Notes under the pieces: generated by a model | What the model was told of the DNA's origin: nothing | Databases searched by the model: none | What the model saw: the letters and a program-made list of their open reading frames with translations, nothing else | Program-made: the position numbers and the translations under genes | In this document: positions 34,016 to 40,865 of the stretch, piece by piece | Layout of the letters: every line of letters starts with the position of its first letter | How positions within the stretch are numbered: position 1 is the first letter of the stretch | Assembly (NCBI GenBank): GCA_002716125.1 | Contig: PAZH01000084.1 | Location: 1-64,000, forward strand | Origin: Rhodospirillaceae bacterium | Lineage (GTDB): Bacteria; Pseudomonadota; Alphaproteobacteria; UBA8366 | Length of the DNA stretch: 64,000 nt | Direction: 5' to 3'

Positions 34016-36103
34016 CTAGTCCGCCGCATCCGCGATCTCTTCGGCCGCGGCTTTGAGCCAGATGGCCGTGTCGTGGAAGGCGGCGCCGCCGGCCGGCGGG
34101 ACGGGTGTTGCATCGATCAGGAGATTGATGCCGATTCCGCCTTCGAAGGCGTCGTCCGGCCAAACGCCTTCGGAGATGACGACACCGGGTTTCGCGGTAT
34201 CGGAAATCTCAGCGTGGAGACGGACCTCGCCTTTTCCATTGCCGATCCGGATTTTCCCACCGTCTGCGATGCCGAGTTCAGCAGCATCCTGAGGATGAAC
34301 GAGAGCGGTCGGCCGGCCTTCGCGTTTGCGGGAGCCGGGAGTCTCCGAAAACGACGTGTTGAGATAGGTTCGAGACGGCGGCGTTACGAGGCGTAGCGGG
34401 CGATCCGCGTCGATCGTGTCGGTGGCGGCCCAATGATCCGGCATCGAAGGCATGCCGTCATGATACGGACCAATCGCGGCCCAGTCCGGCTTGAACCGGA
34501 AACGGCCGTCCGGGTGTGGAAAGCCCGTTAGGAAATGCGCGTCGTCGAAATCGGGTCCGCAATCGATCCATCCTTGTTTGGCGGCGTCCGCCAAGGAAAC
34601 GTTCTTGGACGCTTGTAAGGTTGCGTCGACCAAAGTCTCGGAGGACATTGAGAGGCTTGGATGATCGGCACCAAGCCGTTTCGCCAATGCATTGACGACG
34701 TCGAGGTTGCTGCGGCACTCGGCGTGGTCGTCGAGGACGCGAGGCCCGATGGTCAGGGCGGTGTGGCCCCAGCCCATGTAGATATCGTCGAGTTCGAGGA
34801 ACATCGCCGCCGGCAGCAGAATATCCGCATAGCGTGCGGTCGGTGTCATGAAATGTTCGTGCACGCAAACGAAGAGGTCTTCGCGGGACAGGCCGCGGCG
34901 CACAGCCGCCGAATCCGGCGCTACCATCGCCGTATTGGAATTCTGAATCAACATCGCCTTCACGGGCGGGCCGCCGGCCAGCGCGTCTTCATCGCCGCAT
35001 AGGACCGCCCCGATGCGCGATTGATCGAGCGCCCGCGTGACGTTGTCCGCCAAGTCGGCCGCGTGCGCCAGCGTTGTATCCAAGTTCCAGATGTCGAAAC
35101 TGGCGAAGAATGCACCGCCGCCCTTGTGCCGCCATGCGCCGGTGATTGCAGGCAGGCAGCTCACCGCGTGCATGTTGCTGGCGCCGTTCCGGCTGCGGGT
35201 GAAACCCACGCCGAGCCGCAGGAAACTCTTCGCGGTGCGGCCGTACAGCCGGGCGAATGCGCGGATCTCCGCAGCCGGGATTCCGGTGATTTCGGCCGCC
35301 CATTCGGGCGTCTTCTCGGCGAGATGCGTGCGGACATCCGTATCGAAATCGGTGAGCTCGGCGAGAAACGTTTCGTCCGCCATGCCTTCCGCCAGCATGA
35401 CCTGCATCATCGCGCAGGCCAACGCGCCGTCGGTTCCCGGATTGAGCACGATACCGATATCGGCCGCCGCCATCGTCGATGTTCGGTAGACATCGACCAC
35501 GACCAATTTTGCGCCGTTCGTCTTTCGCGCCTTCTGAATATGGTTCATCAAGTTGACGTTCGTGTGAACCGGATTGCCGCCCCAGACGACAATGAGGTCG
35601 GCGGCTTCGATCTCGACCGGGTCCGCGCCTCGTTGCGCGCCGACACCGGCTTGCCAGCCCGACACCCCGGGCGTCACGCAGATCGTGCCCTTCATGCCGG
35701 AATAACCGAGCAGCCGGCTCAAGCGCTCCATCCCGAACCGCTGAACGATGCCGAGGGTGCCGCCGGAGTGGTACGGCCAGACCGATTCCGCGCCGTGCGT
35801 CTTGGCGGCGGTGTCGAACGCGGCGGCGATCGTATCGAGTGCTTCGTCCCAGCTGATGCGTTCGAACTTGCCTTCGCCTTTGGCGCCGATTCGGCGCATC
35901 GGATGCGTTAGGCGATCCGGGTGATGAACCCGTTCCGCATACCGGCCGACTTTCTCGCAAACGACGCCGGCGGTGAAGGGCAGATTGGCCGCGCCGCGAA
36001 TACGGCCGATACGTGTTGGCGATAGCCGTTCGACTTCAAGTGCGCAGGCGCTCGGACAGTCGTGCGGGCACGCGGTGCGAACGATCTCGATCTCGGCGGA
36101 CAT
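34016..36103 (-). CDS. Molybdopterin-containing oxidoreductase (DMSO-reductase family)
   Basis: 695 aa. An N-terminal [4Fe-4S] site TACPHDCPSACALEVE plus VVCEKVGRY precedes the Mo-bis-MGD domain (VWPYHSGGTLGIVQRF then VVWGGNPVHTN and ILLPAAMFLELDD). The C-terminal dinucleotide-binding domain follows (TALVHPQDAAELGIADGG). No twin-arginine signal is visible, so it is probably cytoplasmic. The substrate is unknown; it resembles the single-subunit assimilatory branch. EamA follows downstream and may be co-transcribed. Confidence 0.9.
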   Translation of the reverse strand: MSAEIEIVRTACPHDCPSACALEVERLSPTRIGRIRGAANLPFTAGVVCEKVGRYAERVHHPDRLTHPMRRIGAKGEGKFERISWDEALDTIAAAFDTAAKTHGAESVWPYHSGGTLGIVQRFGMERLSRLLGYSGMKGTICVTPGVSGWQAGVGAQRGADPVEIEAADLIVVWGGNPVHTNVNLMNHIQKARKTNGAKLVVVDVYRTSTMAAADIGIVLNPGTDGALACAMMQVMLAEGMADETFLAELTDFDTDVRTHLAEKTPEWAAEITGIPAAEIRAFARLYGRTAKSFLRLGVGFTRSRNGASNMHAVSCLPAITGAWRHKGGGAFFASFDIWNLDTTLAHAADLADNVTRALDQSRIGAVLCGDEDALAGGPPVKAMLIQNSNTAMVAPDSAAVRRGLSREDLFVCVHEHFMTPTARYADILLPAAMFLELDDIYMGWGHTALTIGPRVLDDHAECRSNLDVVNALAKRLGADHPSLSMSSETLVDATLQASKNVSLADAAKQGWIDCGPDFDDAHFLTGFPHPDGRFRFKPDWAAIGPYHDGMPSMPDHWAATDTIDADRPLRLVTPPSRTYLNTSFSETPGSRKREGRPTALVHPQDAAELGIADGGKIRIGNGKGEVRLHAEISDTAKPGVVISEGVWPDDAFEGGIGINLLIDATPVPPAGGAAFHDTAIWLKAAAEEIADAAD

Positions 36104-36242
36104 GCGTCAGGCTCCCCTTCGGTTCCGTGGACGACTATAGGTGTTCCGGCAGAAAAGTTCACGTCGGAAGCGGGCGGACTGGACAAAGACAAGCGCTTCG
36201 ACCATAGCCTAACAGGTATTCGAGAGCGTCCGGGAAAGGGCG

Positions 36243-37652
36243 ATGAGCGAAAAGATTACGGCAGAATTGCGGTTCGGCGTGCGTCTCGTGGAGCGGTTTG
36301 CGGCCCTTTCCGGCGACGCGAATCCCATTCACGTCGACCGTATCGCAGCCCGGCGGTTGATGTTCGGGGGCCGCGTCGCGCATGGCATGTTGTCGGTTCT
36401 CTGGGCCTTGTCCTGTCTGCGGGCCGCGCGACCGGGGATCACCGGTCTTCGACACATCCGCGCCAAGTTCCGAGCGCCGGTCCGGGTTGGCGCGCGCGCT
36501 CGTCTTGAGATCACCGGCGATGGATCCGCTTGGCGGGCCGCGATCCGCGCCGGCGGTCGGACCTGTGCCACCGTGACGTTCGAGACCACAGACGGGCCGC
36601 TTCGCACGTTTGTTGCCGATCCGGTAAGCGAGGACATGGCCCTTGTCTGCCGGGAACTCGATGATGCGGCGCTTGCGACGGCTGCCGGCCGTTTCGGCGT
36701 ATCGCGGTTCCGTCCGGAGGCGCTTTTCGCAGGACTCGCGGGTTTCGATCCCGACCAATGCGGATTGATCGCCGGGTTGAGCCGGCTCGTGGGAATGGAA
36801 TGTCCCGGGCGCCATTCGACGTTTGTCGGTTTCGATGTCGCGTTTTTGGATACCGACGATACACATTGTGAAATCGAATATCGCGTCGAAGCTTATGAAC
36901 CGCGGTTTCGCCTTATGACAATGGCGATCTCAGGGGGCATGCAAGGCGTTGTCGAAAGTATCGTCCGACCGGCGCCGGTCGCGCAACCGACCTTGGCCGC
37001 GCTGCGTGTTCATTTCCCGCACCCGGCGTTTGTTGGACAGCGTGCGTTGGTACTGGGCGGTTCGCGCGGTCTCGGTGAGGTTGTCGCCAAGTGTTTTGCC
37101 GTGGGGGGCGGGGCGTGCGCATTGAGTTATCACCTGGGAGCGGGCGACGCGGCGCAGGTGGTGAATGACATAAACGGGCAATTCGAAGATGCCGCCACCG
37201 CGATCCATTGGGACATTCAACGGGCGCCGCCGCGACTCGAGGGCGCCTTCAGCCATGCGTTCTATCTCGCCAGTCCGCGCATTGCCGCCAGCCGGCCCGG
37301 CCGTTTTGACGAAGCACTCTACCGCGCTTTTAAGGCGTTTTACGTGGACCCGCTGGAGGCGGTTATCGATCGGTTTGCGACGGTGGCCGCGCACGATGCG
37401 GTGTTTGTTTACGTCTCCAGTGTCTATGTCGAAGATACACCGGCCGGGTTCGAGGAATACGCAACCGCCAAACGCGAGGGAGAAGCCGCCGCTGAAATGT
37501 TCTGCCGATCACATGGGATCAGGTATCGGCGATGGCGACCGCCGCAATTGCTGACCGATCAGACGGCGGGATATCTCGACAGCGATGCGCCCGACACCGG
37601 CCAAATCGCCGCCGACTATCTCCGTCAGTTGATGGAGACTGAGAGCCGTTGA
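36243..37652 (+). CDS. MaoC/hot-dog plus SDR fusion protein
   Basis: 469 aa. Residues 1-115 form a MaoC-type hot-dog with the hydratase pair Asp25/His30 (SGDANPIHVD) and GGRVAHGMLS. Residues 185-245 look like a second, more diverged hot-dog (FVGFDVAFLDTDDTHCEIEY). Residues 267-469 are a short-chain dehydrogenase fold with GGSRGLG (272-278) and an S-x-Y-type active site (VYVSSVYV, then EYATAKREGE giving Y-x3-K). The combination suggests hydration followed by oxidoreduction of an acyl substrate, but none is identified. Divergent from the molybdenum oxidoreductase. Confidence 0.75.
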   Translation: MSEKITAELRFGVRLVERFAALSGDANPIHVDRIAARRLMFGGRVAHGMLSVLWALSCLRAARPGITGLRHIRAKFRAPVRVGARARLEITGDGSAWRAAIRAGGRTCATVTFETTDGPLRTFVADPVSEDMALVCRELDDAALATAAGRFGVSRFRPEALFAGLAGFDPDQCGLIAGLSRLVGMECPGRHSTFVGFDVAFLDTDDTHCEIEYRVEAYEPRFRLMTMAISGGMQGVVESIVRPAPVAQPTLAALRVHFPHPAFVGQRALVLGGSRGLGEVVAKCFAVGGGACALSYHLGAGDAAQVVNDINGQFEDAATAIHWDIQRAPPRLEGAFSHAFYLASPRIAASRPGRFDEALYRAFKAFYVDPLEAVIDRFATVAAHDAVFVYVSSVYVEDTPAGFEEYATAKREGEAAAEMFCRSHGIRYRRWRPPQLLTDQTAGYLDSDAPDTGQIAADYLRQLMETESR

Positions 37653-37676
37653 CGGCTCTATGCCTGCCGCAGTCGT

Positions 37677-38093
37677 TTAGTCGCCGAACGAAATCGAACG
37701 AATGGTCGATAGAATCTGACGCCGAACTTGCGGGTTTTCGACCTTATAGTACGCTTCCACCAATTCGACCGTGTCCGGCTTCATAAGATGGATGACGTTA
37801 TCGTCTTCTTCTTCAATCGGTGTCGGTTGGTTTTCCAAACCTTCGAAGAAATACTGGACGGGCACACTCAGGATACGGGACAGATCGAACAGGCGCGATG
37901 CACCGACGCGATTTGTTCCTCGTTCGTATTTCTGTAACTGTTGGAAGGTAACGCCAAGCGCATTTGCGACTTCGGTCTGACTCATACCGCGTTCGTTTCG
38001 TTTATCGCGAATCCGTTGACCGACATGCGTATCAACGGTCTTGGCCTGCGCTCGACTCCGCTTCGCCGCTGCACTCATCGATGTTCTGGGCAA
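37677..38093 (-). CDS. XRE-family HTH regulator (copy 1)
   Basis: About 138 aa. An XRE HTH (VGQRIRDKRNERGMSQTEVA then LGVTFQQLQKYERGTNRVGA) is followed by LFDLSRILSVPVQYFFEG and an acidic C-terminal helix. I chose TTG at 38093 because AGGAG lies 7 nt upstream; ATG at 38078 or 38114 remain possible. A perfect 20-bp palindrome sits 49 bp upstream, consistent with autoregulation. It is paralogous to the regulator at 49.2 kb. Confidence 0.88.
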   Translation of the reverse strand: MPRTSMSAAAKRSRAQAKTVDTHVGQRIRDKRNERGMSQTEVANALGVTFQQLQKYERGTNRVGASRLFDLSRILSVPVQYFFEGLENQPTPIEEEDDNVIHLMKPDTVELVEAYYKVENPQVRRQILSTIRSISFGD

Positions 38094-38141
38094 AACAAAT
38101 CTCCTTTTGCGCATTCATAGGGTCACTTCTCAATACGAACC

Positions 38142-38161
38142 TATCCTACCTAGGTAGGATA
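38142..38161. promoter_or_regulatory. Perfect 20-bp palindromic operator upstream of XRE copy 1
   Basis: TATCCTACCTAGGTAGGATA is its own reverse complement. It lies 49 bp before the TTG start of the XRE gene and overlaps the region expected for its promoter. The half-site TAGGTAG recurs next to the paralogous XRE gene (49583-49589). Confidence 0.72.
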
Positions 38162-38229
38162 TACAATCGATTCCCCTGTGCTGAAACCGCTCGGAGTCAT
38201 AGCTCGTACGGTCGCTGGCAGCGGACGGA

Positions 38230-38613
38230 TCAGTCTTGCGTTACCCGCGTCGCGGCGTGTGTCATCTCTTGAACCGCGGAGTCGAAAAAAGCATCGAGCC
38301 GATCTTGCAGTGAGGAAGACAGACCCACCAATTTCGAACGTGCGTCGGAGGGGTTGTCGCGCTCTTCGACCAGCCCGCGGCGAATCGCGGTCTCCAGGTA
38401 TTTGCCCGCCGTGTGCGCACTCTTGACCGAGGTCATGTATCCCAAGGCGTCGGTTTTACGGACGTCCGATTGCGCCTGCCACAGTTTGGTAAAAAGATCC
38501 CAATAGACAGCAGACCAAAATTCCGTGTCGTTGCCGAAAACCTTGAGCCAGTGCTCACCGACCTTTTCGGTCATCCTTAAGTATTCTTCGTGCTGCGTAC
38601 GACCGTAATCCAT
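38230..38613 (-). CDS. MarR-like winged-helix protein
   Basis: 127 aa. The C-terminal half reads like a winged helix: TSVKSAHTAGKYLETAIRRG (recognition helix region) and LVEERDNPSDARSKLVGLSS (wing) match the MarR pattern. The N-terminal half (MDYGRTQHEEYLRMTEKVGE) is less typical. It is probably a DNA-binding regulator. It is on the same strand as, and 137 bp before, XRE copy 1. Confidence 0.75.
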   Translation of the reverse strand: MDYGRTQHEEYLRMTEKVGEHWLKVFGNDTEFWSAVYWDLFTKLWQAQSDVRKTDALGYMTSVKSAHTAGKYLETAIRRGLVEERDNPSDARSKLVGLSSSLQDRLDAFFDSAVQEMTHAATRVTQD

Positions 38614-38906
38614 GCGCCGGAAAATCCCCTAGATCGTCCATATCCGAGAATCAACATAACAAACTACATATAAATTTGCATCTGAAATACGGGATAAATG
38701 TGGAAATTTCTGTAGCACACGTATGCTTCGCAGCGATAACGCCACCATAAATGATGTAAAATCAACAAGTTAAATAATATTCAAAAATAACTTTACTAAT
38801 ACATGTAAAAATGCGATAAAATGTGCATATAGAATTGAGGTGAAAGGCTTCTCTCCGCCACGCTCACCGAAGACGATTGAAAGAACTAGATCGAGGAAAT
38901 GAAAAG
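38614..38906. other. AT-rich intergenic region
   Basis: About 290 bp, far more AT-rich than the flanks, between the divergent winged-helix gene and a secreted-protein gene. It contains runs such as TAAATAATATTCAAAAATAA (near 38771-38790) and no ORF of note. Promoters for both neighbours must lie here, but I cannot single out hexamers among many AT-rich candidates. Confidence 0.6.
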
Positions 38907-39302
38907 ATGAGCAGCAAAACCCACCAAGCAATTCGCAATTTAACACTCGCCGCCGGCGCTGTCGTGATCGGTGCCGGGCTCCTGGCCACGCCGGCGGCTG
39001 CCGGCGATTGGTCGACAGGGCACGGTCATCGCCATTACGACCGTGCATGGTCGCAAGACCGCGAAACGACCCGCCTCCTGCGCCGTGTTTTGAACGCGTT
39101 CTTCAATGAGCGGGATCGCCACTACGCTTACGTGCCGGCGAAACCGAACGTACATCGCGTCAAACATCACCGCCGGAACGGCAAAACCCAGGTCTGCCGA
39201 ACGAAGACCAAGATCGTTATCGATGATTACGGGTACCGTAAGAAGATCGTGCGCAAGCATTGCCGCGACACCCGCCCGAACCGCCGCTATTGGCAACGCT
39301 AA
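38907..39302 (+). CDS. Small secreted basic protein
   Basis: 131 aa. The signal peptide ends near ATPAAAGDW. The mature part is rich in Arg/His/Tyr, with two cysteines (TQVCRTK and RKHCRDTR), which may form a disulfide. The ATG at 38907 has GAGGA 9 nt upstream; an upstream TTG (38877) adds ten residues. A repeated Tyr-Arg-Lys theme (DDYGYRKKIVRKHC) is seen but no known domain. A lipoprotein gene follows. Confidence 0.72.
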   Translation: MSSKTHQAIRNLTLAAGAVVIGAGLLATPAAAGDWSTGHGHRHYDRAWSQDRETTRLLRRVLNAFFNERDRHYAYVPAKPNVHRVKHHRRNGKTQVCRTKTKIVIDDYGYRKKIVRKHCRDTRPNRRYWQR

Positions 39303-39340
39303 GATCGCGGCGATCGCCAACCTATTTGGGAGTAATGACG

Positions 39341-39817
39341 ATGAAACGCACACTAAAATTGGCTTTCTCCGTGACTGCCATTGGCCTATTACTCGGTGGT
39401 TGCATGCAGGGTCACGGCCCAAAACAAACCGGCGGGCTATTGGTCGGCGGGGGGCTCGGCGCGCTGGCCGGCTCCCAAATAGGGAATGGCAGCGGAAAAC
39501 TTGCCGCCGTCGCAATTGGAACGCTCGCGGGTGCGGCACTCGGCAACGAAGTGGGCCGCTCTTTGGACCGGGCCGACCGGTTGGAAATGTCGGCCGCGGC
39601 GAAAGCGGCGCAACACGCCCCGATCGGCTCTCCTATTCGCTGGGAAAATCCGTCGAGCGGCAATTATGGAAGCATAACGCCGCGCCGCGAAGGCCGGCAC
39701 CGCCGCTCCGGCGCGGTTTGCCGGGAGTTCAGCAACAGCCTGACCATCGACGGGCAGACTGAGGAGTATGTCGGTGTCGCGTGCCGGGCACGGGACGGCA
39801 GCTGGAACCTCATGTAA
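39341..39817 (+). CDS. 17-kDa surface antigen family lipoprotein (glycine-zipper)
   Basis: 158 aa. The signal ends at lipobox LLLGGC. A glycine-zipper 2TM segment follows (LLVGGGLGALAGSQIGNGSG then AIGTLAGAALGNEVGRSLD). The C-terminal surface-antigen module ends with REFSNSLTIDGQ and VGVACRARDGSWNL, including conserved cysteines. The ATG at 39341 has GGGAG 8 nt upstream, better than the ATG six bases earlier. Outer-membrane location is expected from the family. Confidence 0.88.
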   Translation: MKRTLKLAFSVTAIGLLLGGCMQGHGPKQTGGLLVGGGLGALAGSQIGNGSGKLAAVAIGTLAGAALGNEVGRSLDRADRLEMSAAAKAAQHAPIGSPIRWENPSSGNYGSITPRREGRHRRSGAVCREFSNSLTIDGQTEEYVGVACRARDGSWNLM

Positions 39818-39821
39818 CGCG

Positions 39822-40865
39822 TCAATCCGTGGTCAGCCGTCCGGGTTTTTCGGCGACCAATAATTTCGCGAAGAACTCGCGCTGTGTTCGAAGGATCCGC
39901 AATCCGGATTCTTCGAACATGCTGATTAGATCGCTGGTAATGAAATCGTGGTAATAGGGCTCGTGAAAGGCCACCGGAAATCGTCGCAGCAGGGCGTCAT
40001 AATCCGGTCGGTCGCCGATCTGCATCGAATCGAGAAAAAACAGCCGCCCGCCCGGTTTTAACACCCGGGCCATTTCTGCCGCCGCGCGCAGCCGGGCCTT
40101 CTGCGGCAATTCATGGAACAGGAAGACGCAGCTCAATGTGTCATAGCTCGCGTCTGCGAAGGGCAGCTCTTCGGCATTGGCATGAACGAGCCCCGTGCGG
40201 GACCAGTCTGCGAGGTTGCGCTGGGTTTCCCGCAGATAGGGTTGGCTAAGGTCGGTACCGGTGACGCGCAGCCGCGGCCGCGCGTCTTTCAGCATCGCCA
40301 AAAACCGTCCGGTCCCGCAGGCGATATCGAGGTGATTCGCTTTCCGAACGGCGGTCGTCTGCAGGAACGCCGTCAGCGCCCCAAGGCATTGTCGCCGCAT
40401 CGCATCCGCGCCGCCGACGAAAAGCACCTCTACCTGGTGGTCATAAAGCGCGGCCGATTCATCGGTGAGATAACCGCCGCTCTGATAATGAAAGTTCTGC
40501 AGAAAGTATCTCGGATAACGCCCGCGGAGATCCGGATTGAAGACTTCTTGGCCGTCGCCGGCCTGGCGGCGGCGATTGACGGCGGAAAGGTCCCGAAAAA
40601 ATGCGAAGGACTTGCGTGCAGAGGTAATCGGGCCCGTGTCGGCCGGGAGGGGAGCGGGATAAAGGCCCTCTCGCACGTTTTGCCAGTCCCGTTCCAGGAG
40701 GTCGTTCAAATCGTCATAGACCGTGCGCCAGCTTGGCAAGGGACCTTCGGGCGGGCCTTCGATGCTCGGCGCTGATCGCATTGCCGCCGCATAGTGAGCG
40801 GAATACCACGCGGACCGCATTTTCTGCGTGGTTTGATAAATTAACTTATCGAGCGCCGTCGGCAT
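39822..40865 (-). CDS. SAM-dependent methyltransferase
   Basis: 347 aa. Class I methyltransferase motif I is HLDIACGTGRFLAMLKDAR; motif II is HANAEELPFADASYDTLSCV, then HELPQKARLRAAAEMARVLK. An N-terminal helical extension (about 180 residues) precedes the Rossmann domain, as in some membrane-linked methyltransferases. The ATG at 40865 has AAGGGA 6 nt upstream. The substrate is unknown. Convergent with the 17-kDa antigen gene. Confidence 0.84.
   Translation of the reverse strand: MPTALDKLIYQTTQKMRSAWYSAHYAAAMRSAPSIEGPPEGPLPSWRTVYDDLNDLLERDWQNVREGLYPAPLPADTGPITSARKSFAFFRDLSAVNRRRQAGDGQEVFNPDLRGRYPRYFLQNFHYQSGGYLTDESAALYDHQVEVLFVGGADAMRRQCLGALTAFLQTTAVRKANHLDIACGTGRFLAMLKDARPRLRVTGTDLSQPYLRETQRNLADWSRTGLVHANAEELPFADASYDTLSCVFLFHELPQKARLRAAAEMARVLKPGGRLFFLDSMQIGDRPDYDALLRRFPVAFHEPYYHDFITSDLISMFEESGLRILRTQREFFAKLLVAEKPGRLTTD

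Follow-up and report, generated by a model that had tools for sequence, protein, structure and literature searches.

A fused MaoC-SDR protein of a Rhodospirillaceae bacterium as a probable lactyl-ACP synthase for surface acylation

A fused dehydratase-ketoreductase (DH-KR) of 469 aa, encoded at 36243-37652 on the plus strand of the 64,000-nucleotide stretch analyzed here (the window), is probably a lactyl-ACP synthase that was acquired horizontally, took the place of a split MaoC/SDR gene pair, and feeds Dlt-like surface acylation by MBOAT and SGNH proteins. FkbH, the enzyme to which its family is linked, is a HAD-IIIC enzyme making glyceryl-ACP from 1,3-bisphosphoglycerate. With fair confidence we assign ACP-bound glycerate as the substrate of the window protein, which is most likely a dehydratase and alpha-ketoacyl reductase rather than an acyl-CoA hydratase/dehydrogenase. 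This assignment draws on the FkbH/ACP linkage, the domain order of polyketide synthase homologs, and characterized DH-KR proteins.

The gene is one intact ORF with an ATG start and zero internal stops. AlphaFold2, supplied with 43 aligned relatives, modeled the protein with a mean pLDDT of 94.1 and a pTM of 0.90. In the model, a strand, a hot-dog helix, and four strands occur twice (residues 3-116 and 148-241) and are followed by a Rossmann SDR domain (residues 267-467). Hot-dog 1 (36249-36590, plus strand) is of the MaoC or hydratase-2 type and carries the D25/H30 dyad in SGDANPIH, with residues 16-94 matching Pfam MaoC_dehydratas (PF01575; E 9.7e-17, above cut-off). Hot-dog 2 (36684-36965, plus strand) is diverged and lacks a Pfam match, being recognized from the model (block pLDDT 78-97), from invariant residues, and from Foldseek, by which the double-hot-dog MaoC structure 5i7n aligned over ~328 columns (TMt 0.50). 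The SDR/ketoreductase domain (37041-37643, plus strand) contains GGSRGLG at 272-278, S392, and Y406-x3-K410. Residues 267-327 match Pfam adh_short weakly (E 6.6e-5, below cut-off for the window protein alone), and a profile of the 43 relatives matched FabG-type SDR structures over residues ~254-453 and hydratase-2 structures over ~1-108. No solved whole-length structure was found among the Foldseek matches shown (best query-normalized TM 0.38) or by sequence search. The original prediction of a single 469-aa polypeptide, with an N-terminal D-x4-H motif (Asp25/His30) and a C-terminal SDR domain, is borne out by these data, including the structure prediction of residues 1-469 that it had proposed as a check. 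The second hot-dog it described is also present, at 148-241 and not at the predicted 185-245.

Two alignments of relatives, one of 26 rows and one of 43, showed no variation at D25, H30, G272, G276, G278, and S392, nor at G184, P188, and G189 of hot-dog 2. Y406 and K410 were invariant in the 26-row alignment and reached at least 90% conservation in the larger one. Such conservation of catalytic residues among relatives lies far beyond chance. R275 of the glycine-rich loop was at least 90% conserved in both alignments, which, from general knowledge of SDRs, we take to suggest NADPH as the cofactor. Among the most conserved stretches of the family is VGMxxPGxHS in hot-dog 2 (residues 183-192, window 36789-36818). 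No NCBIfam model fits the whole window protein, most of the 43 relatives had no NCBIfam match even at 1e-10, and no curated family spans the full length. Annotation currently labels proteins of this kind just as "SDR family oxidoreductase", which conceals the pathway.

The gene is flanked by a molybdopterin oxidoreductase (34016-36103) on one side and an HTH regulator (37677-38114, minus strand) on the other, and there is no FkbH or ACP gene near it. tblastn and blastn synteny with a congener (G420) placed the gene in a ~3.7-kb variable segment (36117-39843), which also holds two small ORFs and whose content includes the HTH regulator and a 127-aa ORF (38230-38613, minus strand). The segment separates the molybdopterin oxidoreductase, which is conserved, from a methyltransferase/PGK pair. 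At the syntenic locus of G420, 289 bp stand in its place, separating a molybdopterin oxidoreductase and a methyltransferase that are 87% and 76% identical to their counterparts in the window. No flanking repeats of at least 16 bp were found around the segment. The DH-KR gene appears to have been acquired horizontally.

The single FkbH of this genome is encoded on another contig (C70), in a cassette with the order Wzy_C ligase/polymerase, FkbH, ACP, MBOAT, and SGNH-like protein (L030:8352-14415). On this contig, FkbH occupies C70:23151-24947 and the ACP C70:22868-23119. PP-binding and MBOAT were called by Pfam, while the SGNH-like protein, for which Pfam gave no match, was recognized visually by its GDS and DxxH motifs. 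The C terminus of the MBOAT protein, FIYFQF, fits FXYXXF. By gene content, the cassette represents a Gram-negative MBOAT/SGNH system that depends on a carrier protein, and many FkbH loci of the class have FkbH-ACP-MBOAT sets like it (e.g., L041-L045, L047, L049, L056, L060, L061, and L063). Four relatives, one of the same genus (G419) and three of the same family (G414, G415, and G421), have an orthologous cassette in which separate MaoC and SDR genes lie between Wzy_C and FkbH, and by Pfam the same split pair occurs in more distant cassettes (L061, L063, and L044). Split MaoC and SDR genes overlap by ~10-20 bp and adjoin FkbH and ACP at L192, L193, L194, and L195 and at the same three distant cassettes. 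Between C70 and G419, identity is 60% for FkbH, 70% for ACP, and 65% for MBOAT, with the outer flank conserved at 75-84%. It is exactly the split MaoC and SDR genes that the C70 cassette is without, leaving 120 bp between FkbH and Wzy_C.

No orthologs of the split pair were found elsewhere in the assembly, where the best matches had 32-33% identity; since the assembly is 87.6% complete (5.5% contamination), the missing pair could still lie elsewhere. Contamination as a cause of the split location was rejected. The window contig (C84) and C70 both belong to the organism, because the PGK of C84 is 88% identical in G420 and the C70 FkbH cassette is conserved in the family. The simplest reading is a nonorthologous replacement, in which the split pair was lost and its function passed to a fused enzyme acquired from elsewhere. 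The gene, described in the original prediction as standing alone, is solitary locally, but its likely FkbH, ACP, and acyltransferase partners are encoded on another contig of the same genome. We consider it unlikely that the DH-KR is instead an orphan, acquired recently without a working partner or serving a partner other than the C70 cassette. Its position in a variable segment away from any FkbH and its sporadic occurrence in the order (4 of 44 genomes) would fit such a history, but the reading frame and all catalytic residues are intact, and the one FkbH/ACP set of the genome lacks exactly the DH-KR activity.

Under nonorthologous replacement, the window enzyme would act in trans with the C70 partners, namely FkbH, ACP, MBOAT, and the SGNH-like protein, encoded beside Wzy_C. 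FkbH would load glycerate from glycolysis-derived 1,3-bisphosphoglycerate onto the ACP, giving glyceryl-ACP, from which hot-dog 1 (D25/H30) would remove the 3-hydroxyl as water. The resulting 2-hydroxyacryloyl-ACP would tautomerize to pyruvyl-ACP, whose alpha-ketone the SDR domain (S392/Y406/K410, probably with NADPH) would reduce to yield lactyl-ACP. The MBOAT and SGNH proteins would then probably transfer the lactyl group across the membrane to a surface glycan, as Dlt does with D-alanine. The steps up to lactyl-ACP are proposed from homology, intact residues, and linkage, and the surface transfer from gene content. According to passages in PMC4765723 and PMC6162330 (citing He et al. 2014), the bifunctional DH-KR proteins of the FR901464 and lankacidin pathways convert glyceryl-S-ACP to lactyl-S-ACP. 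1,3-Bisphosphoglycerate is the source of the lankacidin starter, and it is the lactoyl form that accumulates (PMC6162330).

The same pathway might end in another product, pyruvyl-ACP or a C3 acyl group such as 3-hydroxypropionyl, with the SDR domain serving another step. Some FkbH loci indeed have only a MaoC gene near the ACP (e.g., L039), and PMC6162330 names pyruvoyl-ACP as an alternative starter for lankacidin. However, the Ser-Tyr-Lys residues of the SDR domain are conserved across the family, the lankacidin pathway accumulates the lactoyl form, and the DH-KR product reported in a passage of PMC4765723 is lactyl-ACP, leaving a different end product rather improbable. The bifunctional enzyme of the original prediction holds with regard to its two hot-dogs and SDR domain, as seen in domains, conservation, and model, but the direction and substrate need revision, away from a hydratase/dehydrogenase on acyl-CoA. 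The substrate was revised to ACP-bound glycerate because of the FkbH/ACP linkage, the domain order of polyketide synthases (PKSs) that embed the same domains, and the lankacidin and FR901464 DH-KR proteins.

Among named genomes of ~10 phyla, FkbH was encoded within 10 kb of the DH-KR in 46 of 56 loci. In the control, only 1 of 24 MaoC-only loci from the same scan had FkbH within 10 kb (Fisher p 2.7e-11). In the first set, some homologs with good flanks (L117, L132, and L143) have no FkbH nearby. FkbH was likewise linked in 13 of 18 loci of a second, partly overlapping set. An FkbH is encoded by 37 of the 385 class genomes and by 15 of the 44 order genomes; every genome with a DH-KR also had FkbH, both in the class sample (3/3, p 8e-4) and in the order sample (4/4, p 0.01). 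An ACP gene usually adjoins FkbH at DH-KR loci. For the 95 other neighbors, the commonest Pfam families were MBOAT, polysaccharide deacetylase, aminoglycoside 3-N-acetyltransferase type, and acyltransferase-3, pointing to a putative role in glycan acylation. At two loci (L040:6735-8048 and L057:6870-8111), a shorter MaoC-SDR fusion of 413-437 aa without hot-dog 2, probably an independent fusion, lies directly upstream of FkbH and ACP. The pair of MaoC and SDR activities was probably assembled more than once, because short fusions and split genes are found at other FkbH loci. Two members from the phylum (L106 and L107, 407-411 aa) match mainly hot-dog 2 and SDR, with the first domain replaced or strongly diverged, and lie ~2 kb from FkbH and ACP.

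A generic fusion of (R)-specific enoyl-CoA hydratase and hydroxyacyl-CoA dehydrogenase, with no tie to FkbH and with short acyl-CoAs of catabolism or PHA metabolism as its substrates, would account for the canonical hydratase-2 motif of hot-dog 1 and its match to PhaJ-type and peroxisomal MFE-2 hydratase structures. We rejected it as distinctly improbable on the FkbH linkage with its MaoC-only control: the FkbH/ACP linkage is near-universal in the family, with almost none in MaoC-only relatives. Two further observations speak against a generic acyl-CoA enzyme: FkbH loci also carry independent MaoC/SDR forms, either split or in a shorter fusion, and no acyl-CoA genes lie directly beside the window gene.

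Full-length homologs were rare in the class, with two besides that of the window among 385 genomes, and sporadic in the order, where the four carriers include the genome of the window; ~16 of 399 genomes of the phylum had one. Dozens of loci were recovered from named genomes of ~10 phyla, including Acidobacteriota, Planctomycetota, Nitrospinota, Thermodesulfobacteriota, Omnitrophota, Bacteroidota, Gemmatimonadota, and Actinomycetota, in a profile scan that used a tight alignment of relatives as the query, the window protein alone having given no matches. The highest identity of any homolog to the window protein was ~38%. Cultivable organisms that carry a complete locus include Desertibaculum subflavum and Paraburkholderia fynbosensis. 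Uniqueness of the hot-dog and SDR architecture was rejected on this census. The domain-architecture search put forward in the original prediction instead revealed a scattered multiphylum family, to the whole length of which no named family corresponds. No homolog was found in phage records. Plasmid homologs comprised a Niveispirillum gene, a lankacidin-region gene of Streptomyces griseofuscus, and the N termini of giant PKSs of Streptomyces anulatus and Ensifer canadensis, both with the domain order MaoC-SDR-FkbH-ACP-KS in a single chain. Proteins of 3200-4500 aa that start with MaoC-SDR and have FkbH inside were observed at L025 (Ensifer canadensis pT173a) and at L152, L154, and L158 (Planctomycetota); all four are probable lactyl-primed PKSs, the domain order being profile-checked for L025 only.

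The S. griseofuscus homolog directly adjoins apparent PKS genes for lankacidin and has ACP and HAD-IIIC genes in its vicinity, and we infer from its position and architecture that it is the counterpart of the characterized lankacidin protein. The window protein aligned across all domains to the lankacidin-cluster and PKS-embedded proteins at 22-27% identity. In a maximum-likelihood tree, it fell in a 50-member non-PKS clade with 100/100 support, and the PKS/actinomycete clade with the lankacidin-region protein formed a separate sister clade. The catalytic assignment thus reaches across an identity of only ~24%, with the residues and FkbH partners common to both clades as the bridge. That lactyl-ACP primes a polyketide or nonribosomal product, as in lankacidin, and not a glycan, is very doubtful, for although PKS-clade homologs have this known role, the only FkbH of the genome sits with MBOAT, SGNH, and Wzy_C rather than a PKS, and MBOAT, polysaccharide deacetylase, and acyltransferases abound at the loci of the non-PKS clade, to which the window protein belongs.

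The enzyme kind is already known, and glyceryl-to-lactyl carrier chemistry has so far been described for the starter units of a few polyketides. A search of open-licence PMC papers that combined FkbH with MBOAT, with exopolysaccharide, or with glycan lactylation yielded no description of such a surface-decoration pathway. That the architecture recurs next to polysaccharide and acyl-transfer genes in ~10 bacterial phyla points to a general route to activated lactate for cell-surface decoration. A Gram-negative counterpart of Dlt, in which FkbH, ACP, a fused or split DH-KR, and MBOAT/SGNH lactylate surface polysaccharide, is quite possibly widespread, with the fused enzyme of this organism standing in for the split pair in trans. 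Non-Dlt MBOAT/SGNH pathways have no carrier protein (PMC12148441), a rule to which the FkbH-ACP-MBOAT-SGNH cassettes look like exceptions.

Among known systems, the window protein shares with the lankacidin and FR901464 DH-KR proteins the combination of a MaoC-type hot-dog, a second hot-dog region, and an SDR in one chain, the same catalytic residues, and, as a family, the linkage to FkbH and ACP. Unlike them, it belongs to the separate 50-member clade, is ~24% identical to the lankacidin-cluster homolog, and has no PKS, its partners lying on another contig with an acyltransferase set. The PhaJ or MaoC (R)-specific enoyl-CoA hydratases (1iq6, 5cpg, and 2b3m) have the hot-dog 1 fold and the SGDxNPxH motif, but PhaJ is a stand-alone CoA enzyme with a single hot-dog of ~135-160 aa, whereas the window protein has three domains in 469 aa and comes from an FkbH/ACP-linked family. 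Peroxisomal MFE-2 (3oml and 1s9c) likewise combines an SDR dehydrogenase with hydratase-2 hot-dogs in one chain and acts on peroxisomal acyl-CoA. Its SDR is N-terminal and its hydratase C-terminal, an order that is reversed in the window protein, whose hot-dog 1 matches residues 491-595 of 3oml. Like Dlt (DltA-DltC-DltB-DltD) and MBOAT-SGNH acyltransferases (PMC12148441), the C70 cassette encodes a carrier protein, an MBOAT protein with a C-terminal FXYXXF, and an SGNH-like protein, although FkbH occupies the loading position of DltA and the acyl group would be a C3 hydroxy acid in place of D-alanine. The FXYXXF acyl-shuttle motif has been described for DltX/PatA-type systems, and in C70 it lies within the MBOAT protein rather than in a DltX microprotein.
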